From the NCBI GenBank assembly GCA_937127245.1, contig CAKZLU010000033.1:1-64000 (forward strand): DNA of 64,000 nt. Reading direction: 5' to 3'. A program made the translations under genes and the position numbers. This document shows, piece after piece, positions 19,901-61,656 of this stretch (positions are counted from its first letter, which is position 1; each line of letters starts with the position of its first letter). Under the pieces are notes generated by a model. It made no database searches. It was not told the DNA's origin and saw only the letters and a list, made by a program, of their open reading frames with translations. This DNA comes from an uncultured Actinomycetes bacterium (GTDB lineage Bacteria > Actinomycetota > Geothermincolia > Fen-727 > JACVIW01).

Positions 19901-20587
19901 TCATTTCCCTGAAAGCGCAAATACTGTATCAAGTTCTACCGTGCCACTGATTTTAAGGTTGCCCTCGGATATTTGGATTGATGAAATGCGGTACGGCAGG
20001 TTTTTTCGTACGACATATATGGGCGCCTCCTCAAAGGCTCCCCTTATGGAAATGGTTAATTCTTTCCCGACTGTCACTGCGCCCACTTCGATATCCTCGG
20101 GTATAAAGAAAACGAATCTTCCCGACTGGGGCTCGAGTTTCCCGCTTGCGGTCACGTTAACCGAGCCAAAAGATGTTCTTATTCTTCCCACAAAAAAGCT
20201 CATATCGTCCTTGAGCTTTACCCTCCCCTCCACAAGCCTGTTGCTTTCAACGGTAAAGAAACGGTTTATTTCCTCCTCCGATAATATTGCTGTGAATCTT
20301 CCCTCTGGCCATTCGTTAGACTCGAGTGTGAGGGTGATGAATTTAAAACCTTCAAGCTTTGCGCCGTCGAGATGTATTTTGAGCTTGTCGTATTTCTGGA
20401 ACGCGAGCTTAAGAGCCGGGAACGCTCTGATGGTAACCACGACGTTATCGATATCCGGGTACTTCGCGTCTATTTTTTCGCGGACATAGCGCACCGCGAA
20501 CATGGGAATTATTATTTCGCTTACGCCCCAGAGGAGCACAAATACCAGAAAGGTAATGAGAAATATTTTGGTACCTTTTCTTCTCAA
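19901..20587 (-). CDS. DUF2993 (LmeA-like) membrane-anchored lipid-binding protein
   Basis: This 228-residue protein has one N-terminal membrane segment (IFLITFLVFVLLWGVSEII) followed by an exported domain of the DUF2993 type. Its hallmarks are a long amphipathic beta-rich body with AFPALKLAFQKYDKLKIHLD, then LSEEEINRFF, then VKLKDDMSFFVGRI-like strands. Mycobacterial LmeA of this family binds phospholipid and supports lipomannan elongation. The function here is inferred only at that level. The start codon overlaps the stop of the upstream ATP-grasp gene by 4 bases, so the two are translationally coupled. This is odd because their functions seem unrelated. Confidence 0.72.
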   Translation of the reverse strand: MRRKGTKIFLITFLVFVLLWGVSEIIIPMFAVRYVREKIDAKYPDIDNVVVTIRAFPALKLAFQKYDKLKIHLDGAKLEGFKFITLTLESNEWPEGRFTAILSEEEINRFFTVESNRLVEGRVKLKDDMSFFVGRIRTSFGSVNVTASGKLEPQSGRFVFFIPEDIEVGAVTVGKELTISIRGAFEEAPIYVVRKNLPYRISSIQISEGNLKISGTVELDTVFALSGK

Positions 20588-21330
20588 GTTTTTCCCTTTT
20601 TGAATTTTTCTCCCGCTGGGTCCTGAATTATTTTTTTGTTCTCGCCGCTTGCAAGTATAACAAGCGCGTCCACCGCCACAGGCTCGCCTTCTTGAGTGAG
20701 AATCAGAGGGTTAACGTCCACTTCTGATATGTAGTTCTGCTCAAGACCGAGCCTTCCGAGACCTACGAGCGCCCTTGCCAGCTTCTCTCTGTTGGCTGGA
20801 GCCATTCCCCTGATTGATTCAAGTATCTTTTTTGCCTTAATGTCTTCCATCATTTGATAGGCGTCATCCACGTTTATTGGAGCAACCCTGAAGGAAGTAT
20901 CTCTGAGGATTTCAGTGAATATTCCTCCAAGTCCAAACATGACACACGGACCGAACTGAGGGTCCCTCACGAGGCCTATCGCAAGTTCCCTTGATCCCTT
21001 TACCATTTCTTGAACAAGGATCCCCTCGCTGTCCTCACCTTCAAGGTTTCTCGTAATTGTTTCAAAGGCTTCCCGAACCTCGTTATCGTTCTTAATGCCA
21101 ACGGCGACAAGGTTCCGCTCAGTCTTATGGGTTATCTTCCACCCGCACGCTTTTAAGACAACGGGATAACCCAGTTCGGATGCCGCTTTCACCGCTTCTT
21201 CCGCGCTAGCGACAAGGAATTCTCTTGTTATCGGAACATCATATTTTTCAAGAAGAATTTTTGATTCATGTTCCGAAAGCGCATTCTGACCGTTACTCAA
21301 AGCTTTTTCAATAATTGGATCTGTTTTCAT
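20584..21330 (-). CDS. ADP-forming acyl-CoA synthetase, ATP-grasp (beta) subunit
   Basis: This 248-residue protein is the ATP-grasp domain of the acetate-CoA ligase (ADP-forming) family, comparable in length to the stand-alone beta subunits of archaea (about 230 residues). Recognisable parts are LSEHESKILLEKYDVPITRE, then GYPVVLKACGWKITHKTERN, the GILVQEMVKGSRELAIGLVR strand, the glycine loop MFGLGGIFTEIL and the C-terminal SEVDVNPLIL. Such enzymes turn acyl-CoA, ADP and phosphate into acid and ATP. The gene overlaps the CoA-transferase B gene upstream by 4 bases and sits in the BKACE/CoA-transferase operon. The matching alpha subunit is not adjacent; a candidate lies at 58280. Confidence 0.87.
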   Translation of the reverse strand: MKTDPIIEKALSNGQNALSEHESKILLEKYDVPITREFLVASAEEAVKAASELGYPVVLKACGWKITHKTERNLVAVGIKNDNEVREAFETITRNLEGEDSEGILVQEMVKGSRELAIGLVRDPQFGPCVMFGLGGIFTEILRDTSFRVAPINVDDAYQMMEDIKAKKILESIRGMAPANREKLARALVGLGRLGLEQNYISEVDVNPLILTQEGEPVAVDALVILASGENKKIIQDPAGEKFKKGKT

Positions 21331-36094: not shown

Positions 36095-36206
36095 CTAACG
36101 GGAATCTTCAAACACTTTTTGATTTTGATAGGAGATATTTTAGGGTATGCCATAACCCGCAAGCCATTACGAGTAATCATTGGGCTTTTCTGCAGGGAGG
36201 ATATTC

Positions 36207-37199
36207 ATGGAAGGCGAAAGCGATATCGGAGCAATCATAAGAGACTTGAAGAGCTACCCTGGTTACACACGGAAGCGGGTTATAGGACAGTGGGTGAACG
36301 GTCTTCTTCAAAAAGCATGTGAAATGCCTCTTGCGGATGTCATACCGATAGGGGACGACACCGGTGGTGTAAGATTTGGAGACGAGTACCTATTATGTTC
36401 AGCAGAAGCCATCTTTCCGCCGCTTTTCGATGACCCTTATTTCGCGGGTTTCTGTTCTGTTGTTGTGTGCGTGAATGATATCTACGCCATGGGCGGTCAT
36501 CCGCTCGGCATCCTACTCGTTGTCTATGCGGGCGGTTTTGACGACAGGACAAGGGGGCTCTTTATCGATGGCTTTTCTTCAGGGCTCAGGCATTATTCCC
36601 TGCCACTTCTGGGTGGGCATACCAGCCCTGAGGGCGAAGAGCGTTTTGCCGCGGTTGCCATTGTTGGTCTCGGAAAGCACTTACTTAGAGGTGATGGTGC
36701 AAAGGCGGGAGACGAAATAATTGTCGCTGTTGACCTGGACGGGAGAAAACACCCCTCCTACTACGCTTGGGATACGGTCATGGGAGCTTCGCCTGATGAA
36801 ACCCAAAGTAAACTCTCCGCGCTGAGCAAAGTGTCCAAGAACCATCTTTGCACTTCATGCAGGGACATATCCAATCCGGGCATTATAGGTACGCTGGCGA
36901 TGCTGCTTGAAGCTTCCAGTTGCGGAGGAAGAGTCTGTCTTGAGAGGATACCTGTGCCACAGGGCGTGGAACTTAACTGGTGGTTGAAGGCTTATCCCTC
37001 TTACGGCTTTGTCCTCACTTGCCCTCCCGAAGAGGTAAACCGGGTATCAGGGATTTTTGATGACTCCAATATCGCGTGCGCGACGATAGGAGAGGTCATT
37101 AGAGAAAAGGTTTTTTACCTGAGCCTCTCTGGCGATGAGAAAGTGTTCGTTGATTACCGCAAAGAGAGCGTTACCGCGATCAGGCACTTCGGCGCTTAG
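36207..37199 (+). CDS. AIR synthase-related protein (PurM/SelD/HypE superfamily)
   Basis: This 330-residue protein has the two-domain AIR synthase fold. An N-terminal ATP-binding domain has IPIGDDTGGVRFGDEYLLCS and VCVNDIYAMGGHPLGILLVV, followed by LLGGHTSPEGEERFAAVAIV and a C-terminal domain with RDISNPGIIGTLAMLLEASS. It resembles the sll0787-type AIR-synthase relatives, which occur in nitrilase gene clusters, but none of those partners are here. ThiL, SelD or HypE activity cannot be assigned. The ATG at 36207 has GGGAGG 6 bases upstream. It is preceded by a terminator and followed by convergent membrane-protein genes. Confidence 0.72.
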   Translation: MEGESDIGAIIRDLKSYPGYTRKRVIGQWVNGLLQKACEMPLADVIPIGDDTGGVRFGDEYLLCSAEAIFPPLFDDPYFAGFCSVVVCVNDIYAMGGHPLGILLVVYAGGFDDRTRGLFIDGFSSGLRHYSLPLLGGHTSPEGEERFAAVAIVGLGKHLLRGDGAKAGDEIIVAVDLDGRKHPSYYAWDTVMGASPDETQSKLSALSKVSKNHLCTSCRDISNPGIIGTLAMLLEASSCGGRVCLERIPVPQGVELNWWLKAYPSYGFVLTCPPEEVNRVSGIFDDSNIACATIGEVIREKVFYLSLSGDEKVFVDYRKESVTAIRHFGA

Positions 37200-40231: not shown

Positions 40232-41578
40232 ATGAGTCTTACAAGCGGTACCTGGATAATACACGCGAAAAAAGCGTTAAGGGAGATCGTTGCTGACCCT
40301 TCAAGAATTAGTGACGATCCGGAGGTTCTCATTTCTTATCTCGAACCGGGAAACGAGTTTCCAAACCTTTTCGCTGTGGTCTTCCCAAGGTCTGTGGAGG
40401 AAGTGAAACTGATACTCTCCTGCGCAGGATCTTTCGGGTTTTCCATATGCACTCCTCTGCCGTGGGGACTTAACCCACCTCGACTGGGATGTGTTCTGGA
40501 TTTCCGGTTCATGAACCGAATTTTGAGCATTGATGAAAGAAATCTTTTCATGGAAATAGAGCCAGGTGTAACTTGGGAGCAGGCGCTGGATGCTTTGAAG
40601 AATCTAAATATAAGAATAGCTTTGCCCGCCGCCGCAATGTCTCCATACGTTCTTGATTACGCGATGAACATGGGCGTTTATCTCTCAAGCGTAACGCACA
40701 AGACGCGCCAAATAGCCACGTTTCATGCTATCCTGGCGGATGGCAGGGATTACAGAAGCGGTTCTGATGCTCTTCCCACCTCAACAGCTCACTGGCGCGA
40801 GGACGGTGGCCCGAATATAAGTAAAGTATTCTTTGGTTCTTGGAACACGTTCGGGATAGTTGTGGGAGCTTTTCTATATCTTTATCCCCGTTTCGAGGCT
40901 CGAAAGGTTCTTCAGTTCGGGTTTAACACCATTGACGGGGCGCTAAAAGTGGCTGCTCGAATATCAAGAGGGGAGATTCCCTTAGAAATTGCCGTTCTTT
41001 CCCGATCAAGAGCGCTTATGAAAGCCGGGATTTCCGAAGAGGGAGAAAATCATTCTCCTCCCTGGGTCATGCTTCTTGGGCTTGAGGGAACTGAAATTCT
41101 CGTCAGCTATTATGAAAAGAGAACCCTTGAACTCATTGAGTCTCTCGGCATAAGCACGATGGACGTGCCGAAGCGTATTTCGGAAAAACTTGATTCCTCT
41201 CTGGTGATACCGTGGTATTCAGGAAGATTTTCCTTAGGGTTTTACACGAACTTGAGGTCGGCAAAGCGTTTCTATTATCTCGTAAGAGACAAGTTAAAAA
41301 GGACAGGGGAGCTTTCGCTTGCCGTCATACCGATATCAGGTGGTGCATCATGCTTTATGCACTTTGAGATAATTAACCCCGCCGAAGATTTTGAAAGGAT
41401 AATAAAGCCTTTCTTGAGGCGACTTGCGGATGAAGGCGCTTTCTTCCCGGCTCCAACAGGACCTCTTGCTTCTCACATTCTCGGGAAGCAGCCTGAATAC
41501 AAGAATCTGGTGAAAAGCATCAAGGAAGTCTTAGATCCGTTATCCATTCTGAATGCGGGTCAAATCCTGGAGGTATAA
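40232..41578 (+). CDS. FAD-binding oxidase subunit, GlcE-like
   Basis: This protein of about 448 residues belongs to the PCMH-type FAD-binding family, but the binding motifs are reduced: FAVVFPRSVEEVKLILSCAG, then ICTPLPWGLNPPRLGCVLDF and RNLFMEIEPGVTWEQALDAL are recognisable, while the glycine-rich STGG loop is missing. The C-terminus ends SIKEVLDPLSILNAGQIL, as in GlcD-type proteins. The set FAD (this), Fe-S (41580) and FAD (42830) parallels glycolate oxidase GlcDEF, in which the weaker FAD subunit is GlcE. The ATG at 40232 has AAGGAA upstream. A longer frame from 40196 overlaps meaB. Confidence 0.8.
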   Translation: MSLTSGTWIIHAKKALREIVADPSRISDDPEVLISYLEPGNEFPNLFAVVFPRSVEEVKLILSCAGSFGFSICTPLPWGLNPPRLGCVLDFRFMNRILSIDERNLFMEIEPGVTWEQALDALKNLNIRIALPAAAMSPYVLDYAMNMGVYLSSVTHKTRQIATFHAILADGRDYRSGSDALPTSTAHWREDGGPNISKVFFGSWNTFGIVVGAFLYLYPRFEARKVLQFGFNTIDGALKVAARISRGEIPLEIAVLSRSRALMKAGISEEGENHSPPWVMLLGLEGTEILVSYYEKRTLELIESLGISTMDVPKRISEKLDSSLVIPWYSGRFSLGFYTNLRSAKRFYYLVRDKLKRTGELSLAVIPISGGASCFMHFEIINPAEDFERIIKPFLRRLADEGAFFPAPTGPLASHILGKQPEYKNLVKSIKEVLDPLSILNAGQILEV

Positions 41579-41579
41579 G

Positions 41580-42800
41580 GTGTCCGATATCACAAGGAAC
41601 CCGTATAATCCCTTGCTTCAGGTCCAGAAGGATGCCTACCGGTGCGGCAAATGTATGCTGTGCAAATGGATAGACCATTCCATTATGAGGGATTCTAAGT
41701 TCGCTGAGATTTGCCCTTCCGGCTCTCGTTTCAAGTTCGAATCATATTACGCCTCCGGAAAGCAGGAAATCGCCAGAGGGCTGCTTGATGGGTCTTTAGA
41801 TTATTCCGAACGCCTGCTTCACATACTCTACACATGCACCGAGTGTGGCGCATGTCAAGCAATATGCTCAAATATATGCGACAGGAACCCATTAAAGACT
41901 ATTGTTGCCTTAAGAGAGAAGGCATTCAGGGATGGAGTCGCTCCCATTAAAGAGCATGAGCCGCTTTTCTCTTCTATGAGGAATTACGGCAATCCGTGGC
42001 AGCAGCCATCTTACAGGAAGAACAGGTGGGCAAAGGGGTTAAATTTACTTGATGCCACAAGGGAAAGGGTTGATTTCCTTTACTTCACTGGTTGCACAAC
42101 GGCATATGACCCTGTATTAAAAGAGACGGCGAAGGCGACTGTTGAAATTCTCTCAGCCGCTAATTTAAAAGTGGGTATTTTGGGGGAGAATGAGCCATGT
42201 TGTGGAAGCACCATGTTAAGGGTTGGTGATTTCGAAAGCTTCAGCGCGCTTGCCCATGAGAACATCGGGATACTGAACAAGATTTCCACGGAGAAGATTG
42301 TTACTTCCTGCGCGGGCTGCAATTCCACCCTCAGAGAGGATTATCCGGAAATCGGAGATCTGAAGGCACGGGTTTTTCACTCGGTAGAGTTTATAGCTGA
42401 CCTCTTGAGGGAAGAAAGGCTGGTTTTCGAACGCTCTCGGAAAGCGCGGAGAAAGAGGTTGGTTACCTACCACGATCCGTGTCATTTGGGCAGGTATTGC
42501 GGGATATTCGACGCGCCCAGGGAAATAATCAGAGCAATTCCTGGTCTTGAGCTTGTGGAGATGCCTCGGAACATGGAAAACTCATTTTGCTGCGGTGCTG
42601 GCGCGGGTGTCAGGATTGCTTTTCCTGATTATGCGTTATGGGTTGCCGAGCGGAGGGTAGAGGAGGCGTTGAGCACGGGAGCTGAGTTGCTCATAACGGC
42701 ATGTCCTTTCTGCGAGCAAAATCTCTTACAGGCTGCTCAAGGAAAAATCCCTGTTGTTGACCTCATACTTCTTGTAAGGGATACCATGTCCCAGGCTTGA
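41580..42800 (+). CDS. Fe-S oxidoreductase, GlcF/HdrD/GlpC type
   Basis: This 406-residue subunit carries N-terminal cysteine clusters for iron-sulfur centres (CGKCMLCKWIDHS, CTECGACQAICSNICDR) and two CCG domains in the C-terminal half: CCGSTMLRVGDF, CAGCNSTLREDYP, then YHDPCHLGRYCG, CCGAGAGVRIAFP and CPFCEQNL. Such subunits pass electrons between a flavin partner and a membrane or soluble carrier. The GTG at 41580 has GGAGG 6 bases before it and lies one base past the previous stop. It is paralogous to the protein at 56788 (shared RNYxNPWQ motif). Confidence 0.9.
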   Translation: MSDITRNPYNPLLQVQKDAYRCGKCMLCKWIDHSIMRDSKFAEICPSGSRFKFESYYASGKQEIARGLLDGSLDYSERLLHILYTCTECGACQAICSNICDRNPLKTIVALREKAFRDGVAPIKEHEPLFSSMRNYGNPWQQPSYRKNRWAKGLNLLDATRERVDFLYFTGCTTAYDPVLKETAKATVEILSAANLKVGILGENEPCCGSTMLRVGDFESFSALAHENIGILNKISTEKIVTSCAGCNSTLREDYPEIGDLKARVFHSVEFIADLLREERLVFERSRKARRKRLVTYHDPCHLGRYCGIFDAPREIIRAIPGLELVEMPRNMENSFCCGAGAGVRIAFPDYALWVAERRVEEALSTGAELLITACPFCEQNLLQAAQGKIPVVDLILLVRDTMSQA

Positions 42801-50406: not shown

Positions 50407-50754
50407 TTGAGGGTTAAAGCAAGGGCGATTGTGTGCACGGGTTGCGGTCTTTGCGAAATAGCCTGTGGGTATCACAGGGATGAGGCTTTTTCTCTTCTTT
50501 CATCGAGCGTGATGATTTATAGGGCGGAGGAAAAGAAGAACTATTTTGCCGTTATCGTCAAGACCGATGAAGACCTCTTTGTTGGCAGACCTGAGGGCGA
50601 GCAGGTCATGAAGCTCGGGGAACTACAGAAAGCAGGTGGAGGCGCTTCCGCGAAACCCATTCTGATCAGGGAATCCTGCGATATGTGCGAGGGAAGAGAG
50701 GAAGGTCCCCTTTGCGTTAAAGCGTGTCCCCGCAACGTCCTTTTTGTGGAGTGA
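50407..50754 (+). CDS. Four-Fe-four-S ferredoxin-like electron-transfer protein
   Basis: This 115-residue protein has an N-terminal cysteine motif CTGCGLCEIACGYHRDEAFS and a C-terminal CDMCEGREEGPLCVKACPRN, which resembles the two-cluster electron-transfer subunits that serve tungsten aldehyde oxidoreductases. The central 50 residues are a spacer rich in charged residues. The start is TTG after GGGGGGAG. It ends 10 bases before the aldehyde:ferredoxin oxidoreductase relative, its probable electron partner. Confidence 0.82.
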   Translation: MRVKARAIVCTGCGLCEIACGYHRDEAFSLLSSSVMIYRAEEKKNYFAVIVKTDEDLFVGRPEGEQVMKLGELQKAGGGASAKPILIRESCDMCEGREEGPLCVKACPRNVLFVE

Positions 50755-50764
50755 GGGTTACACC

Positions 50765-52021
50765 ATGGATTATATGTACTCAGGCGATCTGGCGATAATT
50801 GACCTTGAGTCGGGCGAGGTGGATTTCCGCGAGTTCACCGAGCTTGACGATTACGGTCCTGGTTTTTCTTCTTGCCTTGCGGTATTCAAAGAATATGAAG
50901 AATCTGACCCAGTCGTAATCGGTTCGGGTCTTTTCACCGGGACGACGGTACCGGCAAGCTGCCTTGGATTTGTACTTGCCAAAGATTCTGATTCCGACAG
51001 GGTATTCACCGTTCCGTTAAATCTTTACGCTGGCGTTGAGGTCAAGTTTTCAGGCTTTTCCGCTGTGGCAATTATCGGTAATGCTTCCTCACCGGTTTAT
51101 GTATGGCTCCATGACGGTGTGGCGGACGTGTTAGACGCCTCAAATTTTGCCTCTTCCGACACATGGAATACGACGGATTTGATCCGGTCGGAAATGGGCG
51201 ACAGACTGGTGCAAGTGATATCCTGCGGGCCTTTTGACAATAGTCACCAATTCCCGAAATCCGCAAGTATTAACTACTGGGGAAGCTTGGATCCGGGGCA
51301 TGTAGCCGCCTCATTTTTCAGGAAGAATCTGAAGGCGGTGGCGATCAGGGGGCTCGGGATGATAGACGCCGCAGACCCCGATGCCTTTTTCTCAAGTTCG
51401 CTTGAATTTCTTAAAAGATGCAAGCCCGAAAATGGCTTTGCGCTCTGGAATGAGCAAGCTGCAAAGATAGATGAGTGGGTCATGCCGCTTGTGCACAGAT
51501 ATCGTTCCTGCTACGGATGCCCGATGGCTTGTTTTCCCTTTCTGAAATACAGAGAGCAACCATCGGTTTTATCCTCAGAGGGGGTGGAGGAGCCGGGCAT
51601 TCTCCTTACGGCTTACCATGCTCTCAAACTGTTGAAGGAAAAGGGATTCAATCCCAAGGAGGCTATGGGCGTTCTGGAGGCGTGCTTGAAGATGGGGCTT
51701 GAGGCTATTGCCCTCTCAAGCGTAATCGAGCCCGATGCCATAAAGGCATCTGAAAACATAGTCGAAACCGTGAAAACAATCCAGAAAGAAAATAGAATTG
51801 CGATTGCGCCATCCGCAATGTTTGCTAACTGGTATTCAGGTGAGGAAAACAGCGCATTTTGGGAAACGCTGAATAGAGCCGCCTACACCCTTGGCATTTG
51901 CCCCATATTTCTCATCAAATCCGGAATAGACATAAGCGAGTTTTACCGATTAAGCGGTCTGGCATGCCAGACTGATTTTGACCAAGAAAGCGTCGATGCC
52001 TCGATCAATCGGCTTATTTAA
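50765..52021 (+). CDS. Short, divergent aldehyde:ferredoxin oxidoreductase-like protein
   Basis: This 418-residue protein aligns with the AOR family but is about 180 residues shorter than usual. It keeps the N-terminal strand SGDLAIIDLESGEVDFREFT, the G-x-TG loop (GLFTGTTVPA), RKNLKAVAIRGLG and the Fe-S motif CYGCPMACFPF (Cys249, Cys252, Cys256), with a possible fourth Cys379 in LGICPIF. The GGRG-type and GRAAGRGGLGAVMGS-type tungstopterin motifs are lost, so metal-pterin binding is doubtful. The start at 50765 has GAGGG upstream. It lies directly after a ferredoxin and before an amidotransferase-like gene and hdrA. Confidence 0.72.
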   Translation: MDYMYSGDLAIIDLESGEVDFREFTELDDYGPGFSSCLAVFKEYEESDPVVIGSGLFTGTTVPASCLGFVLAKDSDSDRVFTVPLNLYAGVEVKFSGFSAVAIIGNASSPVYVWLHDGVADVLDASNFASSDTWNTTDLIRSEMGDRLVQVISCGPFDNSHQFPKSASINYWGSLDPGHVAASFFRKNLKAVAIRGLGMIDAADPDAFFSSSLEFLKRCKPENGFALWNEQAAKIDEWVMPLVHRYRSCYGCPMACFPFLKYREQPSVLSSEGVEEPGILLTAYHALKLLKEKGFNPKEAMGVLEACLKMGLEAIALSSVIEPDAIKASENIVETVKTIQKENRIAIAPSAMFANWYSGEENSAFWETLNRAAYTLGICPIFLIKSGIDISEFYRLSGLACQTDFDQESVDASINRLI

Positions 52022-52038: not shown

Positions 52039-53436
52039 ATGAGCTCTCGTTTTGAAAGGGCCGCAAGATACCCTCTGTTTACCTTATATAGAGAGCTCTT
52101 TGCGCGCGCTTTAAAGGATGGAAACCTGCTGGCGCCAGGGATTGCGGTTTACACAGGGAGCGGGGCGTCCCACTCGTGGATATGGTTTGCTGACCTTTTT
52201 GAAAGGCTCTGTCTTTACGATATCTCTTTCTTATCCGAGACTGATATTTTTTCCGGTGCTCTTAACGGTAAGGACGCTTTCTTCATAGGAGGTGGCGACA
52301 CGCTCGAAATGGCTTGCGCCCTAGGGGGAAAGGGCGCAAGACTTATCTCAAATTTCGTGGCAAATGGAGGTTTCTATTACGGTTCGTGTGCGGGCGCTTA
52401 TCTTGTGCTGTCAGGCGTTGACGATGGTCCTTTCAAACCTTTCAATCTGTTTCCAGGGAATATGCTTAATGTGATGAAAAACCCACCACCGCCTCGTTGT
52501 CTTCAGCATAAGTACACCGCGCCGTATGGAGACAGATATGTGTTTCATCCCGTTTACGGGGAGGTTGTGATAAAAAAGCGCGAAGCCGGAAAGGTTCCGC
52601 TGATTTTCCAAATTTCAAACGGAATAGAGGCACCTCTTTTCGGCGGACCGGTGATTGATTCCTACGTTGAAGACCATGTTATCGCGTTATATGGGATTAA
52701 GAGAACGAGGGCAGCATTCCTGTGGGAATTTCAGGAGGCGGCGAGGTTTCTCGAGGGAAAACCAGCCGTGTGCGCGGCGCCTTGCGGAAGCGGTTTGGTT
52801 TTTGTCAGCGGTCCACATCTTGAACATCCGCTTTATCCCGCCGCTTCCTGCGTCATCGCGGAGGCGCTTTTCGCGCACCTAAATGTTTATAGAAGCGGCT
52901 GTTTTTTGGATGACGTTCAGTTTCCAGAAATTGAATTTTTCAGCGGGTGGAAATACAGTGAAAGCGTGTTCGAGGTAGCGAAAAACCTACACCCCTGGGC
53001 ACAACAGCCTTCCACCTCGAGTCGTGAAAATAACCTCAAGAACGTGATTTATTCTCTAAAAAGAGTTTTGAGTAACGCAAGGATTGTGGCCTACGGTCTT
53101 GAGAAAATGCCAGTTGCATGGAAAATCGGGCTTAAGGTTTGGGAGCCTGAGAAAATCAGGATGCTCTTAGAGACCGCATGGGTAAGAGTTTCATCAATGA
53201 GCCGCCGTTTGATTTGGGATTCTTACACCGAGCGTCTCGAGAATATCACAGAGATGTACTCGAGAATCACTTCCGAATTGAAAAATTTGCTTTTTCTCAT
53301 AGAAAAGGGCGCAGATTCAGACCTTGAGGTCCGAGCACTTATTGGTGAGCTGAAGAAAGTTACCGTGGCTTTTCTTTCGCTATACTTCGAGGTACTGAAA
53401 AACTCGTTCCAATGTGGACTGCCGCTCAACGGATAA
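52039..53436 (+). CDS. Glutamine amidotransferase-like (BPL_N-type) protein with helical C-terminus
   Basis: This 465-residue protein has an N-terminal class I amidotransferase-like domain (residues 30-290). GIAVYTGSGASHSWIWFADL is followed by FFIGGGDTLEMACALGGKGA, the nucleophile elbow GGFYYGSCAGAYLVLSGVDD with Cys117, and FVSGPHLEHP with a candidate His-x-Glu pair. This matches the domain also found at the N-terminus of biotin protein ligases. The last 150 residues are helical and unrecognised. No synthetase partner is fused, so the nitrogen acceptor is unknown. It sits between the AOR-like gene and hdrA, 17 bases after the former. Confidence 0.7.
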   Translation: MSSRFERAARYPLFTLYRELFARALKDGNLLAPGIAVYTGSGASHSWIWFADLFERLCLYDISFLSETDIFSGALNGKDAFFIGGGDTLEMACALGGKGARLISNFVANGGFYYGSCAGAYLVLSGVDDGPFKPFNLFPGNMLNVMKNPPPPRCLQHKYTAPYGDRYVFHPVYGEVVIKKREAGKVPLIFQISNGIEAPLFGGPVIDSYVEDHVIALYGIKRTRAAFLWEFQEAARFLEGKPAVCAAPCGSGLVFVSGPHLEHPLYPAASCVIAEALFAHLNVYRSGCFLDDVQFPEIEFFSGWKYSESVFEVAKNLHPWAQQPSTSSRENNLKNVIYSLKRVLSNARIVAYGLEKMPVAWKIGLKVWEPEKIRMLLETAWVRVSSMSRRLIWDSYTERLENITEMYSRITSELKNLLFLIEKGADSDLEVRALIGELKKVTVAFLSLYFEVLKNSFQCGLPLNG

Positions 53437-53514: not shown

Positions 53515-55485
53515 TTGAGAGTCGGTGTGTATATCTGTCACTGCGGAATGAATATTCAAGGGGTTTTGGATTGCGAATTTCTCCGGGAGCGCTCCTCGAA
53601 ACTTGAAAGCGTCTGCATAGCGTGTGAAATTCCATACCTTTGTTCGGAGGAAGGACAAAAGACCATCGAGCGAGATATTAAGAATGAAAGGCTTGAGCGC
53701 GTTGTTGTCGCTGCATGCTCACCACGCTTACATGAACCCACGTTCAGGGAGGCGCTTAAGCGAGCCGGGTTAAACCCGAACTTCCTGGAAATTGCCAACA
53801 TCAGGGAGCAGTGCTCCTGGGTGCATGAAGGGGGACCAGCGGCGCAAGAGAAGGCGCTTTCGCTTATAAGGGCGGCTGTCTCAAGCTCGATTTACAAAGA
53901 AGAAATTACACCGGTGGTTTTTCCGGTGACGCAATCTGCTCTTGTGATAGGCGGTGGCGTCGCGGGGATGAATTGTGCGATCGCAATCGCGAACGCAGGC
54001 TACGAAGTCTTTCTGATTGAACGTTCCTCCACATTAGGCGGGCATATGGTTCAACTTGACAGGACGTTTCCCACTATGGATTGTGCCGCGTGTATAGTCA
54101 CTCCTCTGATGAGCGATGTATTCAATCATCCAAGGATTCATGTATTCACCTTGAGCGAGATTGACTCACTTGAGGGATTCAAAGGCAATTTTAGAGCTCG
54201 AATCAGGCGCAAGCCGAGGTACGTGAGAATTGAGAGATGCGACGGCTGTTTGAAGTGCGCGGAAGCCTGTGTTCTTAAAGACAAGATACCGGATTCATTC
54301 AATCTGGGATTGAACAGAAGATCGGCTGTTTACATACCCTTTGCCCAGGCGCAGCCCGCTGCGGCTGTTGTTGATCCTCAAAATTGTCTGATTCTTGCCA
54401 AAGGCAAGTGTTCTTCGCCTTGTTTGGAAGCATGTGACCGTCGCGCGATAGATTTTGACATGACCGAGGAGGTCATCGATATAGAAATAGGAGCGGTGAT
54501 TGTCTCCACTGGCTTTACGATTTTCGACGCAAGTGAGATACCCCGCTACGGGTTTGGGAGGTATCCGGAGGTAGTCAACGCTTTGCAGTTCGAAAGAATG
54601 CTTTCAGCCTCCGGTCCGACAGACGGTCGCGTTCTTCTGCCGGATGGGAAAGAGCCTCGGTCGATAGCTTTCATACACTGCGTTGGGTCAAGAGACGAAA
54701 GAACCCATGAGTACTGCTCGAGGGCATGCTGCATGTTCTTGATGAAACAAGCAGTAAGTGCTCGACAACTTTTGGACGCAATGGTCTATGAGTTTTACCT
54801 AGACATAAACGCTTTCGGCAAAGGACATCAAAATCTATACAAGCGGGCAAGACAGGAAGGTGTCCTTTTCGTAAGGGGGAGGGTAGCTGAAGTTGTCAAA
54901 TTGAGGGGTGAACTGAAAGTAATAGCGGAGGACACATTGATTGACAAAGTAATTGAGGTGCCGGTTGACATGGTTGTGCTCGGAACGGGGCTACGCCCGC
55001 CTGAGGATACTGGCAAACTTGCAAAAACACTTAGGATTCACACAGATCCTGATGGTTTCTTCCAGGAAATGCACCCAAAGATGCATCCTTTGGAGACGAA
55101 TGTTGAGGGCATAATGCTCGCGGGTTGCTGTCAGGCCCCTAAGGACATAACCGACACGGTGGCTCAAGCGCAAGCGGCGTCCGGTAAGGCGCTTGAAATC
55201 CTGAGTTCGGATTTCATGACTGCTGATGGGCCTGTGTGCCGCACCGATGAATCTTTATGCGTGGGCTGCGGGATGTGTGTTTTGGTTTGCCCGTTCGAAG
55301 CGGTTGAGTTTGGTGATAACAAAAAGGCAATCATTAAAGAAGCTGTCTGTCGCGGGTGCGGCATATGTGTTGCTGCCTGTTTTTCGGGCGCGATTAACAT
55401 ACCTGAATCGAATGATGAGCAGATACTGGAAAAAATCAAAGCTCTTTGCGCTTTCAGGGAGATTTCGGAGGCAAAAAAGATTTAA
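53515..55485 (+). CDS. hdrA: HdrA-like heterodisulfide reductase subunit A
   Basis: This 656-residue iron-sulfur flavoprotein starts RVGVYICHCGMNIQGVLDCE and has the conserved AACSPRLHEPTFREALKRAG and NIREQCSWVH segments. FAD binding is at VIGGGVAGMNCAIAIANAGY (near residue 143), and DRTFPTMDCAACIVTPLMSD follows. Cysteine clusters include CDGCLKCAEAC, CSSPCLEAC and CVGSRDERTHEYCSRACCMF. The C-terminus has two 4Fe-4S motifs (CVGCGMCVLVCPFEAVEF and CRGCGICVAACFSG). HdrA bifurcates or confurcates electrons between ferredoxin, NAD(P)H and a thiol-type partner. HdrB/HdrC are absent, but an HdrD-like gene lies 1.3 kb downstream. The start is TTG after GGGGG. Confidence 0.93.
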   Translation: MRVGVYICHCGMNIQGVLDCEFLRERSSKLESVCIACEIPYLCSEEGQKTIERDIKNERLERVVVAACSPRLHEPTFREALKRAGLNPNFLEIANIREQCSWVHEGGPAAQEKALSLIRAAVSSSIYKEEITPVVFPVTQSALVIGGGVAGMNCAIAIANAGYEVFLIERSSTLGGHMVQLDRTFPTMDCAACIVTPLMSDVFNHPRIHVFTLSEIDSLEGFKGNFRARIRRKPRYVRIERCDGCLKCAEACVLKDKIPDSFNLGLNRRSAVYIPFAQAQPAAAVVDPQNCLILAKGKCSSPCLEACDRRAIDFDMTEEVIDIEIGAVIVSTGFTIFDASEIPRYGFGRYPEVVNALQFERMLSASGPTDGRVLLPDGKEPRSIAFIHCVGSRDERTHEYCSRACCMFLMKQAVSARQLLDAMVYEFYLDINAFGKGHQNLYKRARQEGVLFVRGRVAEVVKLRGELKVIAEDTLIDKVIEVPVDMVVLGTGLRPPEDTGKLAKTLRIHTDPDGFFQEMHPKMHPLETNVEGIMLAGCCQAPKDITDTVAQAQAASGKALEILSSDFMTADGPVCRTDESLCVGCGMCVLVCPFEAVEFGDNKKAIIKEAVCRGCGICVAACFSGAINIPESNDEQILEKIKALCAFREISEAKKI

Positions 55486-55544
55486 GTAGTTCATATCGCA
55501 TGAATCAAACACGCGAATCTTCTGGAATTGATAAGGATGTGTCA

Positions 55545-56564
55545 GTGAGGAATCCAAAGCGTGAAGCTTCAACCTGCATAAGAGAAAGGCGGCGGGCCAT
55601 TTCTTTCGCATGGGCGGTCTTCGTTGCGCTGATGACGCTTCTGTGTGGAACTTTCCTGCCGTCATCCTGCGGGAAAAAAGAAGAGAGGAGTCCGGGGGTA
55701 AATTTCGGTTATTTGCAGGGGGATATCTATGGCCTGCCGTTTGTAATTGCCAGGGACAAAGGCTTTTTGTCAGATGAGGGGCTGGAGTCAACCCGAGATG
55801 TCACATTCGATTCCGAGGCTGAGGAAATGGGAGCTTTCTCTGCAGGGGAAATTCACATTGGATATGCAAGTATAGATACAGTGATCACGTTCTTTTCGAG
55901 GAAAATGGCCGATGTAAGGATAGCCGCTCAAGTAAACAGCGGCGGAATGGCTCTTGCTGTGCGCAAGGAGCTGGGGGTTCGCAGTATATCCGGGCTCATC
56001 GGTCGTAAGGTCGCAGTCCCGAGTCTTTCCAGCCTCGAGTGTTTCTTTTTGCGGGAGATATGCAGGAAAAAGAGGATCGGAATCGATGAATTAAGGATAG
56101 TGGTAATGAGACCTGATGATATGATTGAAGCGATTTCCTCTTTAAGAATCGATGCGTTCGTTGCGTCCGAACCACTACCGTCTATTGCCCTAAGGCAAGA
56201 AAAGGCATCTATTCTTTGTTACTCGAAAAACATCCTTAAAGGTTTTCCTCACCATGTAATCGTGGTTGACTCAACTTTTTACGATAATAATGCGGACCTT
56301 GTGAAAAGATTCATAAAAGCTTTTGCCTCCTCAATGAGATACATTAAGGAAAATCCGTACGAGGTTCTTGATATTGCAAGGATTCAAACGGGTTGTGACG
56401 AGAAAACCCTATCGCTTGCGTTTAAAAGCATCGTTTTTTCTTGGGAATTACGTTCGGACGGTCTTGAAGAGTACGTGGATTTCCTCACCCAGACCGGGGT
56501 AGTTTCTGAAAAGGAGGCTGGATCTCTGCTGCCAAGACTGATAAGCGAAAGGTTTTCACCTTAA
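55545..56564 (+). CDS. Orphan substrate-binding lipoprotein (NMT1/SsuA-like)
   Basis: This protein of about 339 residues has a signal peptide with lipobox FLPSSC, so it is a lipid-anchored binding protein. The mature part resembles NMT1/SsuA substrate-binding proteins: GDIYGLPFVIARDKGFLSDE, HIGYASIDTVITFFSRK, ISGLIGRKVAVPSLSSLECF and VDSTFYDNNADLVKRFIKAF. Such proteins bind small organic anions or pyrimidine precursors for ABC import. No permease or ATPase gene is present. I use GTG 55545 with AAGGA upstream. The frame is open to 55446, and an ATG at 55500 is possible. It lies between hdrA and the HdrD-like gene. Confidence 0.75.
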   Translation: MRNPKREASTCIRERRRAISFAWAVFVALMTLLCGTFLPSSCGKKEERSPGVNFGYLQGDIYGLPFVIARDKGFLSDEGLESTRDVTFDSEAEEMGAFSAGEIHIGYASIDTVITFFSRKMADVRIAAQVNSGGMALAVRKELGVRSISGLIGRKVAVPSLSSLECFFLREICRKKRIGIDELRIVVMRPDDMIEAISSLRIDAFVASEPLPSIALRQEKASILCYSKNILKGFPHHVIVVDSTFYDNNADLVKRFIKAFASSMRYIKENPYEVLDIARIQTGCDEKTLSLAFKSIVFSWELRSDGLEEYVDFLTQTGVVSEKEAGSLLPRLISERFSP

Positions 56565-56787: not shown

Positions 56788-57999
56788 TTGGAAGAAAGAA
56801 AAAATCAGCAAACGATTAAGTCCCGTAACGAATGCTTCAAACCGGATGTTTCCAAAAGGCAACACTTGATCTCTGAAACCGCCGAAGACGCCCTTTCTTG
56901 TCTCCAGTGCGGAGCGTGCTCGGCTTCATGTCCGGTCTGGAGGTTTTCGAGCCTTTCCCCGAGGCAAATAATGAGATTCATCTCGCTGGGGAATGAGGAT
57001 GAAATCATGCGGCAGGAAGCCCTCTATTACTGCTCCGCCTGTTATTCGTGCGCGATGAGGTGTCCCGCTGGAATCAAGGTGACAAACGTCATACGTGATC
57101 TGAGAAACGTAATGGTTGATAGACAAATAGGTCCCTTGCCTCCTCACTTAGAGCTTGTAGGCAGTGTAAGAAACTATGATAACCCGTGGCAGAAGCCCAG
57201 AGCGCAAAGAGACAGATGGGTAAAAAAGGCTCGTGTCAGAATGAAGGTTGTGCCGGGGGAAGAGGCGGAATTCCTTTATTACCCTGGATGTACCGCGGCC
57301 TACATCCCGGCTATCCAGAACGTGGCGGTGTCAGCCGCCAAGCTGCTTGACGCTTTGGGAGTAGATTTCGGTATCCTGGGCAAAGATGAGATATGCTGTG
57401 GAAGCACATCAATGAGAGTGGGAATGAGGGATTTCTTTATCCGTCAGGCTGAGAGAAATATCGAGAGATTGAACGCTTCTAAAGCGCGGGTAATGGTAAC
57501 AGCATGTGCTGGTTGTTACGGAATCATGAAGCTTGAGTATCCCAAATTTGGGGAACTGAATATGGAAGTGTTACATATCGTAGAGTTTCTTTCTCGCCTT
57601 TTGATGGAACGACGCGACCGGCTTCATCCTTTGGATTTGGCGGTTACATATCACGATCCGTGTCATCTCGCAAGACACGCGGGGGTCACCAAAGAGCCGC
57701 GAGAGGTCCTTTCGCTTATACCTGGTTTAAGGTTTATTGAGATGCCGAGATCCGGGGTCGATGGGCGCTGTTGTGGAGGTGGAGGGGGTTTGAGGACGGG
57801 GTACCCCCACATAGCGCATATGATTGCGTCTGAGAGGATAGAGGAGGCCGTTGAGGCAGGCGCGGAAGCCGTTATCACTTGCTGTCCGTTCTGCGAACTG
57901 AACCTCGGAGAAGCGAGTGCCGCAAGTTACGGCATAGAGGTTTTCGACATCGTGGAAATTCTTTGGCGTTCGGTCGGGGGTGATCTTTCATCGGTTTGA
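56788..57999 (+). CDS. HdrD/GlpC-type Fe-S oxidoreductase
   Basis: This 403-residue protein has two N-terminal 4Fe-4S motifs (CLQCGACSASCPVWRFSSLS and CSACYSCAMRCPAGIKVTN) and two CCG domains: CCGSTSMRVGMRD, CAGCYGIMKLEYPK, YHDPCHLARHAGVTKEPREV, CCGGGGGLRTGYP and CCPFCELN. The pattern is that of HdrCB fusions (HdrD) and GlpC. It probably takes electrons to or from the HdrA-like protein upstream. The start is TTG with GGTGAG before it. It is paralogous to the protein at 41580, sharing RNYxNPWQ and CCGSTxxRVG. Confidence 0.9.
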   Translation: MEERKNQQTIKSRNECFKPDVSKRQHLISETAEDALSCLQCGACSASCPVWRFSSLSPRQIMRFISLGNEDEIMRQEALYYCSACYSCAMRCPAGIKVTNVIRDLRNVMVDRQIGPLPPHLELVGSVRNYDNPWQKPRAQRDRWVKKARVRMKVVPGEEAEFLYYPGCTAAYIPAIQNVAVSAAKLLDALGVDFGILGKDEICCGSTSMRVGMRDFFIRQAERNIERLNASKARVMVTACAGCYGIMKLEYPKFGELNMEVLHIVEFLSRLLMERRDRLHPLDLAVTYHDPCHLARHAGVTKEPREVLSLIPGLRFIEMPRSGVDGRCCGGGGGLRTGYPHIAHMIASERIEEAVEAGAEAVITCCPFCELNLGEASAASYGIEVFDIVEILWRSVGGDLSSV

Positions 58000-58183: not shown

Positions 58184-58279
58184 TTGCGCGGTTACAAGGA
58201 AAAGATACCCGATAAGGGTAGAGATCATGTCAAAAGATGTTTAATTGACGGAAAGGCGAGTTCACATAAAGGGGAGGAG

Positions 58280-59662
58280 ATGCGTGAACTTTTTTATCCA
58301 GAGAGTGTAGCCGTCGTAGGCGCTTCTTCTGGCGAGAAGAACATGGGGAAGAATATAGTGGAGAATTTGCTCAACTGGGGATATAAGGGAAAGATTTTTC
58401 CGGTGAACCCTCGAGGGGAAGATGTTTTTGGCTTAAGAGGGTATAGAAGCATTCCGGAAATCGGAGAAAGGGTGGACCTCGCTGTCGCTTTTGTTCCCGC
58501 AAAAGCGGTGCCAGCGATAATGGATAGTTGCGCGGAGTGCGGAATCAAATGGATGGCGATTCCCTCCGGCGGTTTCTCGGAGTACGGACCTCAAGGAGAG
58601 GAACTCACTCGCGTTATCAAAGAAAAGGCAGAAAAATACAGTATTCGCTTTGTGGGTCCGAACGGCCTTACGATAATCAACACGGAAAACGGTCTGTGCC
58701 TGCCGTTTTTAACGCTTAAGAAACGCGAATACGGTCCAATCTCAATAATTTCTCAAAGTGGTGGCGTGGGATTAAGTCTCATAATGTTCCTCGACAATAG
58801 CTGCGTGGGCTTCAGCAAGTTCATTTCGGTTGGGAACAAGGTCAACATGGATGAGCTCGATTTCCTCGAGTATCTGGCAGAGGATGAAAGCACCAAGGTC
58901 ATCTGCATGTTCCTCGAGAGTGTCGTAAAGGGAAGGAGATTTTTAGAAGTCGCCTCAAGAGTGGATAAGCCCATAATTGTTTACAAGGCAAACGTTACCG
59001 AATTTGGCGCCAGGACCGCGGCAAGCCACACCGCCGCTCTTGCCAATAACGATGAGGTTTTAAACGGCGTTTTCAGGCAGGCAGGTATCATCAGGGTTGA
59101 CACCATTAAGCGGCTCATTGAGACAGCAAGAGGCTTTGCCCTTCCGCCGATAAGAGGGAACAGGGTTGCGGTCATATCCCAGGCAGGAGGATATACGGTT
59201 TTGCTTGCCGATGAGGTGTATAAAAAGGGCTTTGCGCTCCCGGGCTTTTCATCCTCGACAATAGAGGGTTTAAAGGCATATGTGAGATCAGATGTCATAA
59301 GGCTATCCAATCCGCTGGACCTCGGCGATATACACTCTGCGGACGCCATTGTCTATGCCATGGATAGAGCGCTCGGGGAAGAGCAAATAGACGGGGCGGT
59401 GGTGGTGCTTCTGAGGAGAGCGGACGCGAAATACACGGGCGCCTACTCGGCGCTTTCGCGCGAGATATACTCAGACATAGGCAGGATTATGGAAAAACAT
59501 AACAAGCCGATCGCCCTATGTTTGCTTACTCAGGCTGATTATTTGAAAAACGTTCAGCGCAGGATGTCATATCCTATATTCGAGACCCCTGAGGATGCCG
59601 TCACCGTTTTGGCTGCCCTGAGGGATTTCTATTCGCAGTCTAGGATTAACAGCAAATCATAG
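58280..59662 (+). CDS. ADP-forming acyl-CoA synthetase, alpha-type subunit
   Basis: This 460-residue protein has the CoA-binding Rossmann domain (RELFYPESVAVVGASSGEKN and GKIFPVNPRGEDVFGLRGYR) followed by succinyl-CoA-ligase-like domains with ISIISQSGGVGLSLIMFLDN. The phosphohistidine motif is GARTAASHTAALANN, and His250 corresponds to the phosphorylated His of archaeal acetyl-CoA synthetase (ADP-forming). The ATP-grasp domain is absent, so a separate beta subunit is needed; one is encoded at 20584 on the other strand. The frame is open to 58184, but the ATG at 58280 with AAAGGGGAGG matches family starts. Confidence 0.88.
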   Translation: MRELFYPESVAVVGASSGEKNMGKNIVENLLNWGYKGKIFPVNPRGEDVFGLRGYRSIPEIGERVDLAVAFVPAKAVPAIMDSCAECGIKWMAIPSGGFSEYGPQGEELTRVIKEKAEKYSIRFVGPNGLTIINTENGLCLPFLTLKKREYGPISIISQSGGVGLSLIMFLDNSCVGFSKFISVGNKVNMDELDFLEYLAEDESTKVICMFLESVVKGRRFLEVASRVDKPIIVYKANVTEFGARTAASHTAALANNDEVLNGVFRQAGIIRVDTIKRLIETARGFALPPIRGNRVAVISQAGGYTVLLADEVYKKGFALPGFSSSTIEGLKAYVRSDVIRLSNPLDLGDIHSADAIVYAMDRALGEEQIDGAVVVLLRRADAKYTGAYSALSREIYSDIGRIMEKHNKPIALCLLTQADYLKNVQRRMSYPIFETPEDAVTVLAALRDFYSQSRINSKS

Positions 59663-59727: not shown

Positions 59728-60480
59728 ATGTTTATCGAGCAGCTCATTCAAAGAACATCAGAATCGATAAGGATTGGTATTGGTAGCCCCGTTCCGGACG
59801 AAAAAGAGGATGAAATTTTAAAATCCCTTTCCTTTTGCGAGGTCAGAATCTTTCGCGATTGCGAGACTATTTTCTGCGCGCTTTTGGAAGGGTCGATTCA
59901 CGGTGCGGTAAGAGGCTCGCTTTCAGCCTCACCTTTCCTTGAAGCCTTCAGGATAGCAACTGGACACCGCCCCAGAAGGCTCGCTCTACTTTCCACCGCT
60001 GAGGGCAAACCATTTGTTTTCGGGCCGGTTGGCATAGACGAAGGTGGCACTATTCTTGAAATGGAAAAAATGGTGAGTTACGCGAAGATATTCTCCTCCA
60101 TTCTCGGGTGGGAGGCCAAAATTGCCGTGCTCTCCGGTGGAAGAGAGGAGGACATCTCAAGAAGTAAAAAGGTTGCCAAGAGCATAAGAAGGGGAGATGA
60201 AGTATCGAGGAGAACGGGCGCCAGGCATTACCATATCCTCATTGAAGATGCCTTGCGCTGGGCAAACTGCGTCATTGCCCCGGATGGAATATCCGGGAAC
60301 TTGATATACAGAACCCTCGTGCATCTCGGGGGCGGGGCTTCTTTCGGGGCTTTGTATTTTCCGATGAAGCTTGCGCTCGCAGACACTTCAAGGGCGGGTC
60401 CGAAAGAGGAATACGTTGGAGCCGTGGCCCTGACAAATATAGCCGCACAGATCGTTGCGGGAAGAGATTGCGGTTGTTAA
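59728..60480 (+). CDS. MtxX-like (methanogenesis marker protein 4) family protein
   Basis: This 250-residue protein resembles MtxX, also called methanogenesis marker 4, which has a phosphotransacetylase-like fold. Shared-looking segments are IAVLSGGREEDISRSKKVAK, then HYHILIEDALRWANCVIAPD and GISGNLIYRTLVHLGGGASF. The methanogen protein is of unknown function, though first proposed as a methyltransferase. Homologues in bacteria are expected to be rare, and I make the identification from remembered motifs. It follows the ACD alpha gene 65 bases downstream, so acyl-phosphate or CoA chemistry is a fair guess. The start is ATG 59728 without a strong ribosome-binding site. Confidence 0.65.
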   Translation: MFIEQLIQRTSESIRIGIGSPVPDEKEDEILKSLSFCEVRIFRDCETIFCALLEGSIHGAVRGSLSASPFLEAFRIATGHRPRRLALLSTAEGKPFVFGPVGIDEGGTILEMEKMVSYAKIFSSILGWEAKIAVLSGGREEDISRSKKVAKSIRRGDEVSRRTGARHYHILIEDALRWANCVIAPDGISGNLIYRTLVHLGGGASFGALYFPMKLALADTSRAGPKEEYVGAVALTNIAAQIVAGRDCGC

Positions 60481-60549: not shown

Positions 60550-61656
60550 TCAGGGAAGAATGAACACTGGAGTGCCCACCGTGACCGCATTGAACAGTTG
60601 CATAGCGGCCCACTCGGACATTCTTATGCACCCATGAGAAACAGAGTATCCGAGCGAGGCCACATCTGGGGTTGAGTGTATTCCCACCCCGTTTCCAATT
60701 TCCATCCAATACGGCCCCAAGGGATTTCCTGGACCAGGCGGGATGGGTTTTAAGCCTTTGGCCCAGTCAGACTTAGGTGGATACCACGTAGGGTTTTTCT
60801 TCTTCTTTATGATGGAGAACTTACCCGTTGGCGTTGGGTATTGAGGGCTTCCCACCGCGACCTTAAACTCATAAATCAACTCTTCCTTGTCGTAGAGGTA
60901 AAGTTTGTGCTCGCTTAATTTAACCACGACAATTTTGCCGATTTCGTCCTCAGTTATTTCCGGCGTGACGCTCGAAGCCCTGATTTCCACAATTCTTTCT
61001 TTTGTTGCCAGTACTTTCTTAACATCAATTAACGTACGTTCCTCATCAACCACAAGGCCATAGCGTGAGGGTCTTATTATCGGACGTCCTTTGGACATAT
61101 CAATGCTCGCGCTTACAACCTGGCGATTTAAGCTAACCGCGATTTCATGAATTTTTTCGGAAAGCTTGTCCTCATCGTAAACAAGTGAAACGGGTATATA
61201 TTTCCTGATTTGTTTCCGTGATAAACTTCTTAACATTCTTTCAAGAATATTTAGCTTCCGTCCTGCCCAGTACGCTTCCTCGACCATCTTCTTTTCATCG
61301 ATTGATAGTCTTATTTCCTTTGGTGTGATTTCCGTTCTTTTTGAATCGAGCAACAGGATGAGAGGCTTTTTCAGCGGGTTGGAAATTTTCTCTCTGATTA
61401 TTTTTTGAGCCTTTTCCTTGGTCAATCCGCCCACATCTATGCCGGCAATTTTCACGCCCTTTGATATTTTTCCTGCGTTTGCAATGTCCTCGATGAGTAG
61501 ACCGGCAAAAATCATGGAAAAAATCAAAGCGAAGACCATGCCGCTTATTGCCATAATAGCTTTTCCGGGCTCCGGGTTTTTAATCCCCAAACGTCTCTTG
61601 GTTTTTAAACGGCCTCTATTTTGTTTGTCTTTCCCGAAATTTTCAGTGATGCTCAA
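60550..61656 (-). CDS. L,D-transpeptidase (YkuD) with peptidoglycan-binding domain
   Basis: This 368-residue wall enzyme has a cytoplasmic basic N-terminus, a membrane segment (AIMAISGMVFALIFSMIFAG, near 43), a PG_binding_4-type domain (GVKIAGIDVGGLTKEKAQKI) and a YkuD catalytic domain. That domain carries GIHSTP, followed by VSHGCIRMSEWAA with His341 and nucleophile Cys343. It forms 3-3 crosslinks or attaches proteins to peptidoglycan outside the membrane. The start is TTG with AGAGGA close upstream. It converges with the MtxX-like gene. It supports a cell with a thick wall. Confidence 0.92.
   Translation of the reverse strand: MSITENFGKDKQNRGRLKTKRRLGIKNPEPGKAIMAISGMVFALIFSMIFAGLLIEDIANAGKISKGVKIAGIDVGGLTKEKAQKIIREKISNPLKKPLILLLDSKRTEITPKEIRLSIDEKKMVEEAYWAGRKLNILERMLRSLSRKQIRKYIPVSLVYDEDKLSEKIHEIAVSLNRQVVSASIDMSKGRPIIRPSRYGLVVDEERTLIDVKKVLATKERIVEIRASSVTPEITEDEIGKIVVVKLSEHKLYLYDKEELIYEFKVAVGSPQYPTPTGKFSIIKKKKNPTWYPPKSDWAKGLKPIPPGPGNPLGPYWMEIGNGVGIHSTPDVASLGYSVSHGCIRMSEWAAMQLFNAVTVGTPVFILP

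Follow-up and report, generated by a model that had tools for sequence, protein, structure and literature searches.

A gene of the MtxX/Mmp4 family, thought to be a hallmark of methane-making archaea, was found in a conserved gene cluster of anaerobic actinobacteria in which the methane enzyme was not detected, and other methanogenesis marker genes come with it, suggesting that these markers probably do a job separate from making methane. The gene was analyzed in a window of 64,000 nucleotides (positions 1 to 64,000, forward strand, of contig CAKZLU010000033.1, assembly GCA_937127245.1) from an uncultured actinobacterium (Actinomycetota; Geothermincolia; Fen-727; JACVIW01). A sequence-only reading had proposed that it encodes an MtxX-like protein in a bacterium, located next to an ADP-forming acyl-CoA synthetase alpha gene (ACD-alpha) and an HdrD-like gene, and that the family may act in acyl-phosphate/CoA or Hdr-linked chemistry and not in methanogenesis as such. 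We confirmed the observation, including both neighbors. The interpretation was supported as well, although its acyl-phosphate part rests on fold and neighbor alone and is not shown. That reading missed an Mmp2-like gene located about 23 kb away in the same window, as well as the co-occurring marker genes described below.

The ORF starts with ATG, encodes 250 amino acids and contains both motifs on which the family call had been based. In searches against NCBIfam, TIGR03270 (MtxX/Mmp4) was by far its best profile (E 5.3e-48, 163.1 bits; residues 42–235 on profile positions 4–203 of 204). However, this score is below the curated equivalog cut-off of 190 bits, and none of the nine genomes of the host's class that gave a strong match passes it; thus, we regard the protein as belonging to a bacterial branch of the family rather than to the curated equivalog. 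The next family, phosphate butyryltransferase, had an E-value of 0.005, and phosphotransacylase (Pta/Ptb) profiles gave at most 16.1 bits against cut-offs of 282–410.5. A best match to an ordinary phosphate acyltransferase or to an unrelated family, which had been named in advance as the outcome that would overturn the assignment, was therefore not observed, and an ordinary Pta/Ptb identity was rejected. Pfam gave nothing at E ≤ 0.01. The similarity is far beyond chance, as 27 columns were invariant over 43 aligned bacterial and archaeal homologs. The host is bacterial: a GuaB3-family gene scoring over its cut-off lies in the window, and the seven bacterial relatives found by name are Actinomycetota.

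Among solved structures, the best sequence match was methanogen MtxX (MTH_231, PDB 9nzy; E 1.3e-28), whereas Pta (1qzt) followed at 0.025. An AlphaFold2 model built on the 43 aligned homologs had a mean pLDDT of 95.9. Foldseek ranked 9nzy first (8.8e-19), an entry titled 'Structure of Methanogen MtxX (Methanogen Marker Protein MMP4)' and released 2026-02-11, followed by Pta/Ptb at about 1e-10. VIA-align 2 gave Z 27.4 to 9nzy, 20.4–23.8 to Pta/MaeB/Ptb (1qzt, Z 23.8 over 241 residues, 2.5 Å), 17.7–18.6 to PlsX and 14.6–16.0 to PdxA. MtxX is therefore a short member of the phosphotransacylase (PTA) superfamily, with 250 residues against about 330 for Pta. The window protein shares with archaeal MtxX the motifs RGS/T, PVGIDEG, GGRxxDxxR, APDGxxGNLxxR and DTSR, and with the Pta/Ptb, PlsX and MaeB PTA-domain group the fold, the C-terminal motif and a Ser-Arg pair. 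Ser309, Arg310 and Asp316 are catalytic residues of Methanosarcina thermophila Pta. Ser221 and Arg222, which align with the first two, are invariant in 43 of 43 rows, but the Asp316 position (Glu in the window protein) is Glu in 26, Asp in 7, Gly in 5, Ser in 4 and Asn in 1, and gaps just before this column make it less certain, so that the residues alone do not settle whether the Pta site is retained; acyltransferase activity was not assayed. In addition, MtxX has invariant residues of its own, for example in PVGxDEG and GGRxxDxxR, which the Ptb-type sequences that we aligned lack as far as those alignments reach. It is also possible that MtxX is a non-catalytic sensor of acyl-CoA or phosphate that regulates the Hdr/ACD unit, as the PTA domain is thought to do in MaeB. 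The closeness of MaeB PTA domains (Z up to 23.8), the variable Asp316 position and the short length would be consistent with this. However, the 27 invariant columns, 11 of which are Arg, Asp or Glu, look like an active site conserved from methanogens to actinobacteria, the gene lies next to different genes in archaea and bacteria, and the genes that it travels with code for enzymes. We consider a sensor role unlikely.

The host genome (2.62 Mb, 51 contigs) contains one mtxX. Of 396 genomes drawn from the phylum, 12 matched at E ≤ 1e-3: the window's own genome, eight others with strong matches, all in its class, and three (designated G086, G186 and G305) that look Pta-type. Loci L010–L012 from the phylum search look like ordinary Pta/Ptb enzymes by length and sequence and were not counted as MtxX. 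A search of the class found mtxX in 9 of 31 genomes (6 of 19 among the more complete ones). The profile also gave matches below its cut-off in two bacterial controls, Deinobacterium chartae and Thermotoga maritima, which were not examined. A scan of genome contigs detected 493 relatives; of the best 80, seven are bacterial, all Actinomycetota and including Ca. Geothermincola primus, and 73 are archaeal. Other bacterial phyla were not surveyed, and additional bacteria are possible further down the list. One bacterial record (DYIU01000005.1, locus L018) is titled Acidimicrobium ferrooxidans; this name is probably wrong, as the contig appears to correspond to one from G056, a genome of the window's order. 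Most named relatives are metagenome bins, which raises the possibility of archaeal DNA in bacterial bins. However, conserved bacterial synteny had been set as the observation that would exclude such an artefact, and it was found: the same bacterial cluster surrounds mtxX in seven genomes, on a 203-kb contig in the host, and the bacterial proteins are 38–53% identical to the window protein and are not archaeal copies. An assembly or binning artefact is thus very unlikely.

In a careful tree of 50 MtxX sequences, the eight bacterial sequences formed one clade (support 97/85) which joined Methanofastidiosia-type sequences (100/98). A quick tree of 81 sequences agreed (89 and 97). It should be noted that both contained sequences chosen by likeness to the window protein, and that the direction of transfer is inferred from the breadth of the family in archaea.

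The genes around mtxX are listed in the table. By tblastn, HdrA, SsuA-like, HdrD-like, ACD-alpha and mtxX occur in this order on one strand, followed by an opposed L,D-transpeptidase, in loci L014–L019, i.e., in the six other mtxX-containing genomes of the order, and the window has the same order. In some of them, for example in L016, other ORFs lie between. Three genomes without mtxX (G030, G122 and G303) keep SsuA, ACD-alpha and the transpeptidase at the same place, with no HdrA, HdrD or mtxX in the stretch examined. The cluster in G240 lies on a 6-kb contig that ends at HdrD, and the contig of G321 is too short to tell. An AOR-like and a BPL_N-like gene recur beside the SsuA-like gene in G068 and G229 (loci L117 and L118). 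In Geothermincola (locus L029), mtxX is followed by CobO, the mutase, HdrD, two ETF subunits and HdrA.

Table. Features of the window and of selected relatives' loci (cut-offs are the curated NCBIfam values).
Position	Strand	Feature	Supporting data
20584–21330		Stand-alone ATP-grasp protein, possible beta partner of ACD-alpha	Matches the ATP-grasp part of fused ACDs; 37 kb from the ACD-alpha gene
36180–37199	+	Mmp2-like AIR-synthase-family protein, second methanogenesis-marker homolog in the window	TIGR03267 E 1.3e-81, 274 bits, cut-off 365, the best of all NCBIfam profiles for it; TIGR04049 sll0787 251 bits, cut-off 321
41553–42800		Second TfrB-like CCG protein, between two FAD-oxidase-like proteins (read by eye), near MeaB and a mutase large subunit	216 bits
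50407–50754		Small Fe-S-like protein	Next to the AOR N-domain protein
50744–52021	+	AOR N-domain protein, 425 aa	PF02730 E 6e-20; almost no AOR_C match (15.6 bits)
52039–53436	+	BPL_N (glutamine-amidotransferase-like) protein, upstream of HdrA	PF09825 E 2e-8; also upstream of HdrA in L014, L017, L018, L019
53515–55485	+	HdrA-like flavin/Fe-S protein	NF040770 HdrA2 E 2e-233, 777 bits, cut-off 1100
55446–56564	+	SsuA-family substrate-binding protein of an ABC transporter; lipobox-like N-terminus by eye; TTG start overlaps the HdrA end, uncertain	PF09084 E 7e-19; TIGR01728 108 bits, cut-off 163.5
56788–57999	+	HdrD-like CCG/4Fe-4S protein; best named family TfrB (CoM/CoB fumarate reductase B)	PF02754, two stretches; NF004898 TfrB 239 bits, cut-off 385
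58184–59662	+	ADP-forming acyl-CoA synthetase alpha subunit; TTG start uncertain; SHTAAL motif in the translation, where ACD-alpha carries its phospho-histidine	TIGR02717 E 1.3e-116, 390 bits, cut-off 567; PF13607, PF13380; directly before mtxX in the window and in L014–L019
59728–60480	+	mtxX/Mmp4 homolog, PTA-superfamily fold	See text
60550–61656	-	L,D-transpeptidase, 3' boundary of the cluster	PF03734 E 8e-30; same side in L014–L019
62247–62768	+	CobO-type corrinoid adenosyltransferase, conserved neighbor	PF02572 E 2e-65; in L015–L019 and L029
62771–64000	+	Methylmalonyl-CoA mutase-type large subunit, runs off the window	PF01642 E 2e-181; TIGR00641 over its cut-off
L043 2357–3343; L050 2910–3911		mtxX follows dph2 in two Thermoplasmatota genomes	Family tested in L043 only; L050 by sequence cluster
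L127 6166–7347		AIR-synthase of G068, between two families	sll0787 247 bits, Mmp2 220 bits

CobO and the mutase large subunit follow the cluster in six of the seven mtxX loci of the order (L014 ends before them). In some methanogens, mtxX is in one unit with MtrA and MtrH homologs (PMC3087415, PMC4632066). MtxX could thus serve corrinoid or C1 methyl transfer, as its old name says, and in the bacteria the B12-dependent mutase next door. However, its fold is that of PTA, and Mch was not detected in any of the 31 class genomes (controls matched in three archaea), so that an H4MPT-linked C1 role in the bacteria was rejected. G030 and G303, which lack mtxX, keep CobO near the same locus. No MtrA/MtrH homolog was annotated beside bacterial mtxX, where the corrinoid-linked genes are CobO and the mutase, and none of the archaeal neighbors that we annotated, which are a sample, was a corrinoid or methyl-transfer gene of this kind. 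No MtrH-like or other methyltransferase fold was among the listed structural matches, which does not by itself exclude one. This role appears unlikely.

We then examined which genes accompany mtxX in the 31 class genomes. An Mmp2-like protein scored E ≤ 1.3e-54 in 10 genomes, including all nine with mtxX, whereas the best score elsewhere was 2.4e-20, as expected of AIR-synthase-type paralogs; the profile gave matches in all 14 control genomes and passed its cut-off in two of them and in none of the 31. A radical SAM protein of the MSMEG_0568 type (TIGR04043) scored E ≤ 2.3e-79 in nine genomes, eight of them with mtxX. Four are over the cut-off and five below it, the window's genome among the latter, which leaves strict membership in this family undecided. 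Mmp11 (TIGR03280) was over its cut-off in 7 genomes, six of them with mtxX. The SsuA-like protein was in 14 of 31 at E ≤ 1e-15, including all nine. Six genomes have mtxX, Mmp2, Mmp11 and the radical SAM gene, and 21 have none of the four. Fisher p-values for mtxX against Mmp2, radical SAM and Mmp11 were 5e-7, 1e-5 and 7e-4, not corrected for relatedness and within one class. G000 and G262, of one genus, differ in three of the four genes together, though G262 is 86% complete. Mmp11 and the radical SAM gene lie less than 1 kb apart in all seven Mmp11 genomes, and in G273 Mmp2, the radical SAM gene and Mmp11 are consecutive. On the other hand, mtxX and Mmp2 share a contig in four of the nine genomes (G000, G056, G101 and G090), about 19–32 kb apart, and lie on different contigs in the other five. 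The window's own genome has no Mmp11 match and its radical SAM gene is on another contig, whereas G240 has Mmp2, radical SAM and Mmp11 but no mtxX was found.

The linkage is also seen in archaea. Among 73 archaeal loci, by BLAST over 70 bits, Mmp2 lies beside mtxX in 22, Mmp11 in 7 and the radical SAM protein in 2; one locus has both Mmp2 and Mmp11, so that 28 of 73 have one of the two. Families were confirmed on examples. Thermoplasmata locus L066 has NifB-like, Mmp2, MtxX and Mmp11 in a row; a few kb on lie an ORF that clusters with the SsuA-like proteins, one that clusters with ABC ATPases and, between them, one that reads like a permease (no profile was run on these three). L027 has MtxX-Mmp11-radical SAM, L046 has Mmp11-radical SAM-MtxX, and L078 has MtxX-Mmp11-Mmp2, the last cut by the contig end. 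An apparent run of all four genes in L027 was rejected, because the AIR-synthase there is ThiL, which also makes a false long branch in the Mmp2 tree. In Methanofastidiosia-type genomes (L024, L026 and L027), a protein weakly like BASS-type symporters (45 bits, cut-off 326, tested in L027 only) lies upstream of mtxX, with two ORFs between in L026. Against a strict link, Mmp11 is over its cut-off in only 13 of 32 archaeal mtxX genomes and gives no match in 6, the four Lokiarchaeota among them. Bacterial Mmp2 forms one clade (97), and bacterial Mmp11 falls with Methanofastidiosia and Bathyarchaeota (100), its own monophyly being weak (67).

An alternative is that the co-occurrence is only ecological or phylogenetic, i.e., the genes were kept by the same lineages but act apart, the AIR-synthase and radical SAM protein in a pathway like that of the Nit1C nitrilase cluster, which also has an AIR synthase and a radical SAM protein (PMC11049912). 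TIGR04043 and TIGR04049 are the families of NitD and NitF of Nit1C. The loose bacterial linkage of mtxX and Mmp2 and the Lokiarchaeota without Mmp11 are consistent with this view. In addition, the AIR-synthase of G068 (family f6) scores better as sll0787 than as Mmp2, and the radical SAM profile also matches in Synechococcus, so these two could have their own bacterial history. However, the partners here are MtxX and Mmp11, and no nitrilase was seen among the neighbors that we annotated (a genome-wide nitrilase search was not made). In archaea mtxX is directly beside Mmp2, Mmp11 or the same radical SAM family in Asgard, Thermoplasmata, Bathyarchaeota, Methanofastidiosia-type and Methanomicrobiales genomes, and the genes differ together between G000 and G262. 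Independent action is therefore possible but, in our view, unlikely.

Independence from methanogenesis is supported by the absence of Mcr-alpha matches in the 31 class genomes (both methanogen controls matched), together with the absence of Mch. Of 32 archaeal mtxX genomes, 13 have Mcr-alpha and 19 show no match; their completeness is unknown and some absences may be false, as the genome of L024 shows none although its Methanofastidiosia-type sister L027 has it. Because of the TfrB-like protein and the sulfonate-type SsuA, we also considered that coenzyme M might be made through ComA, but ComA was found in 0 of 31 genomes. This control is weak, since it matches in M. jannaschii and B. subtilis but not in Methanosarcina acetivorans, and coenzyme M by another route or by import is not excluded. 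A coenzyme B role was considered but not examined; mtxX is reported as a pseudogene in Methanosaeta concilii (PMC4153887), which speaks against an indispensable cofactor. Previous studies described MtxX as a methanogen protein of unknown function (PMC3087415; see also Adam et al.) and reported Ferroglobus as the only non-methanogen holder among those compared then (PMC4153887). Literature searches, judged by titles and opening abstracts, revealed no report of mtxX in bacteria, and the papers examined for Mmp4 concerned other things of that name.

Our data best fit a genuine bacterial MtxX, probably acquired once from an archaeal source related to Methanofastidiosia and kept in a lineage of anaerobic Actinomycetota as one part of a small module shared with archaea: Mmp2 (AIR-synthase-like), Mmp4/MtxX, Mmp11 (with a TiaS-kinase-like domain in archaeal examples) and the MSMEG_0568-type radical SAM protein. 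In this view, to which we assign a probability of about 0.55, the module works without methyl-CoM reductase and without the methanopterin pathway. MtxX would keep the phosphotransacylase fold and its Ser-Arg pair and interconvert one particular acyl-CoA and acyl-phosphate as one step of the pathway, the altered site pointing to a special substrate or a changed reaction, whereas the two ATP-type enzymes and the radical SAM protein would do other steps. In the bacteria, the product or substrate would be tied to an Hdr-type electron-transfer unit, an SsuA-type importer and ACD-alpha, which itself handles acyl-phosphates. The analysis directly establishes the homology, fold, clade, gene cluster, co-occurrence and lack of Mcr-alpha or Mch matches, and the linkage is well supported; the acyl-phosphate chemistry, the common pathway and the direction and number of transfers are inferences, and no substrate or product has been identified. 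It should be noted that the window's matches to TIGR03270, TIGR03267, TIGR02717, TfrB, SsuA and HdrA2 are all below the curated cut-offs. A four-enzyme small-molecule pathway is the simplest reading.

What is new here is that mtxX in these bacteria, where it forms its own clade and lies in a cluster with HdrA, SsuA-like, HdrD-like and ACD-alpha genes, belongs to a co-inherited set of methanogenesis-marker homologs outside methanogenesis. More tentatively, and weakened by the Lokiarchaeota that have mtxX without Mmp11, the four proteins may form an undescribed biosynthetic or degradative pathway for a small molecule shared by methanogens, Asgard and other archaea and a lineage of anaerobic Actinomycetota, which would serve Hdr-type electron transfer and not methane formation, so that at least three 'methanogenesis markers' would be misnamed. 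MtxX is used as a methanogen marker. A bacterial set without an Mcr-alpha or Mch match separates its role from methanogenesis, gives it partners and turns three marker proteins of unknown function into one testable pathway; it also warns that such marker genes alone do not prove methane metabolism in metagenomes.
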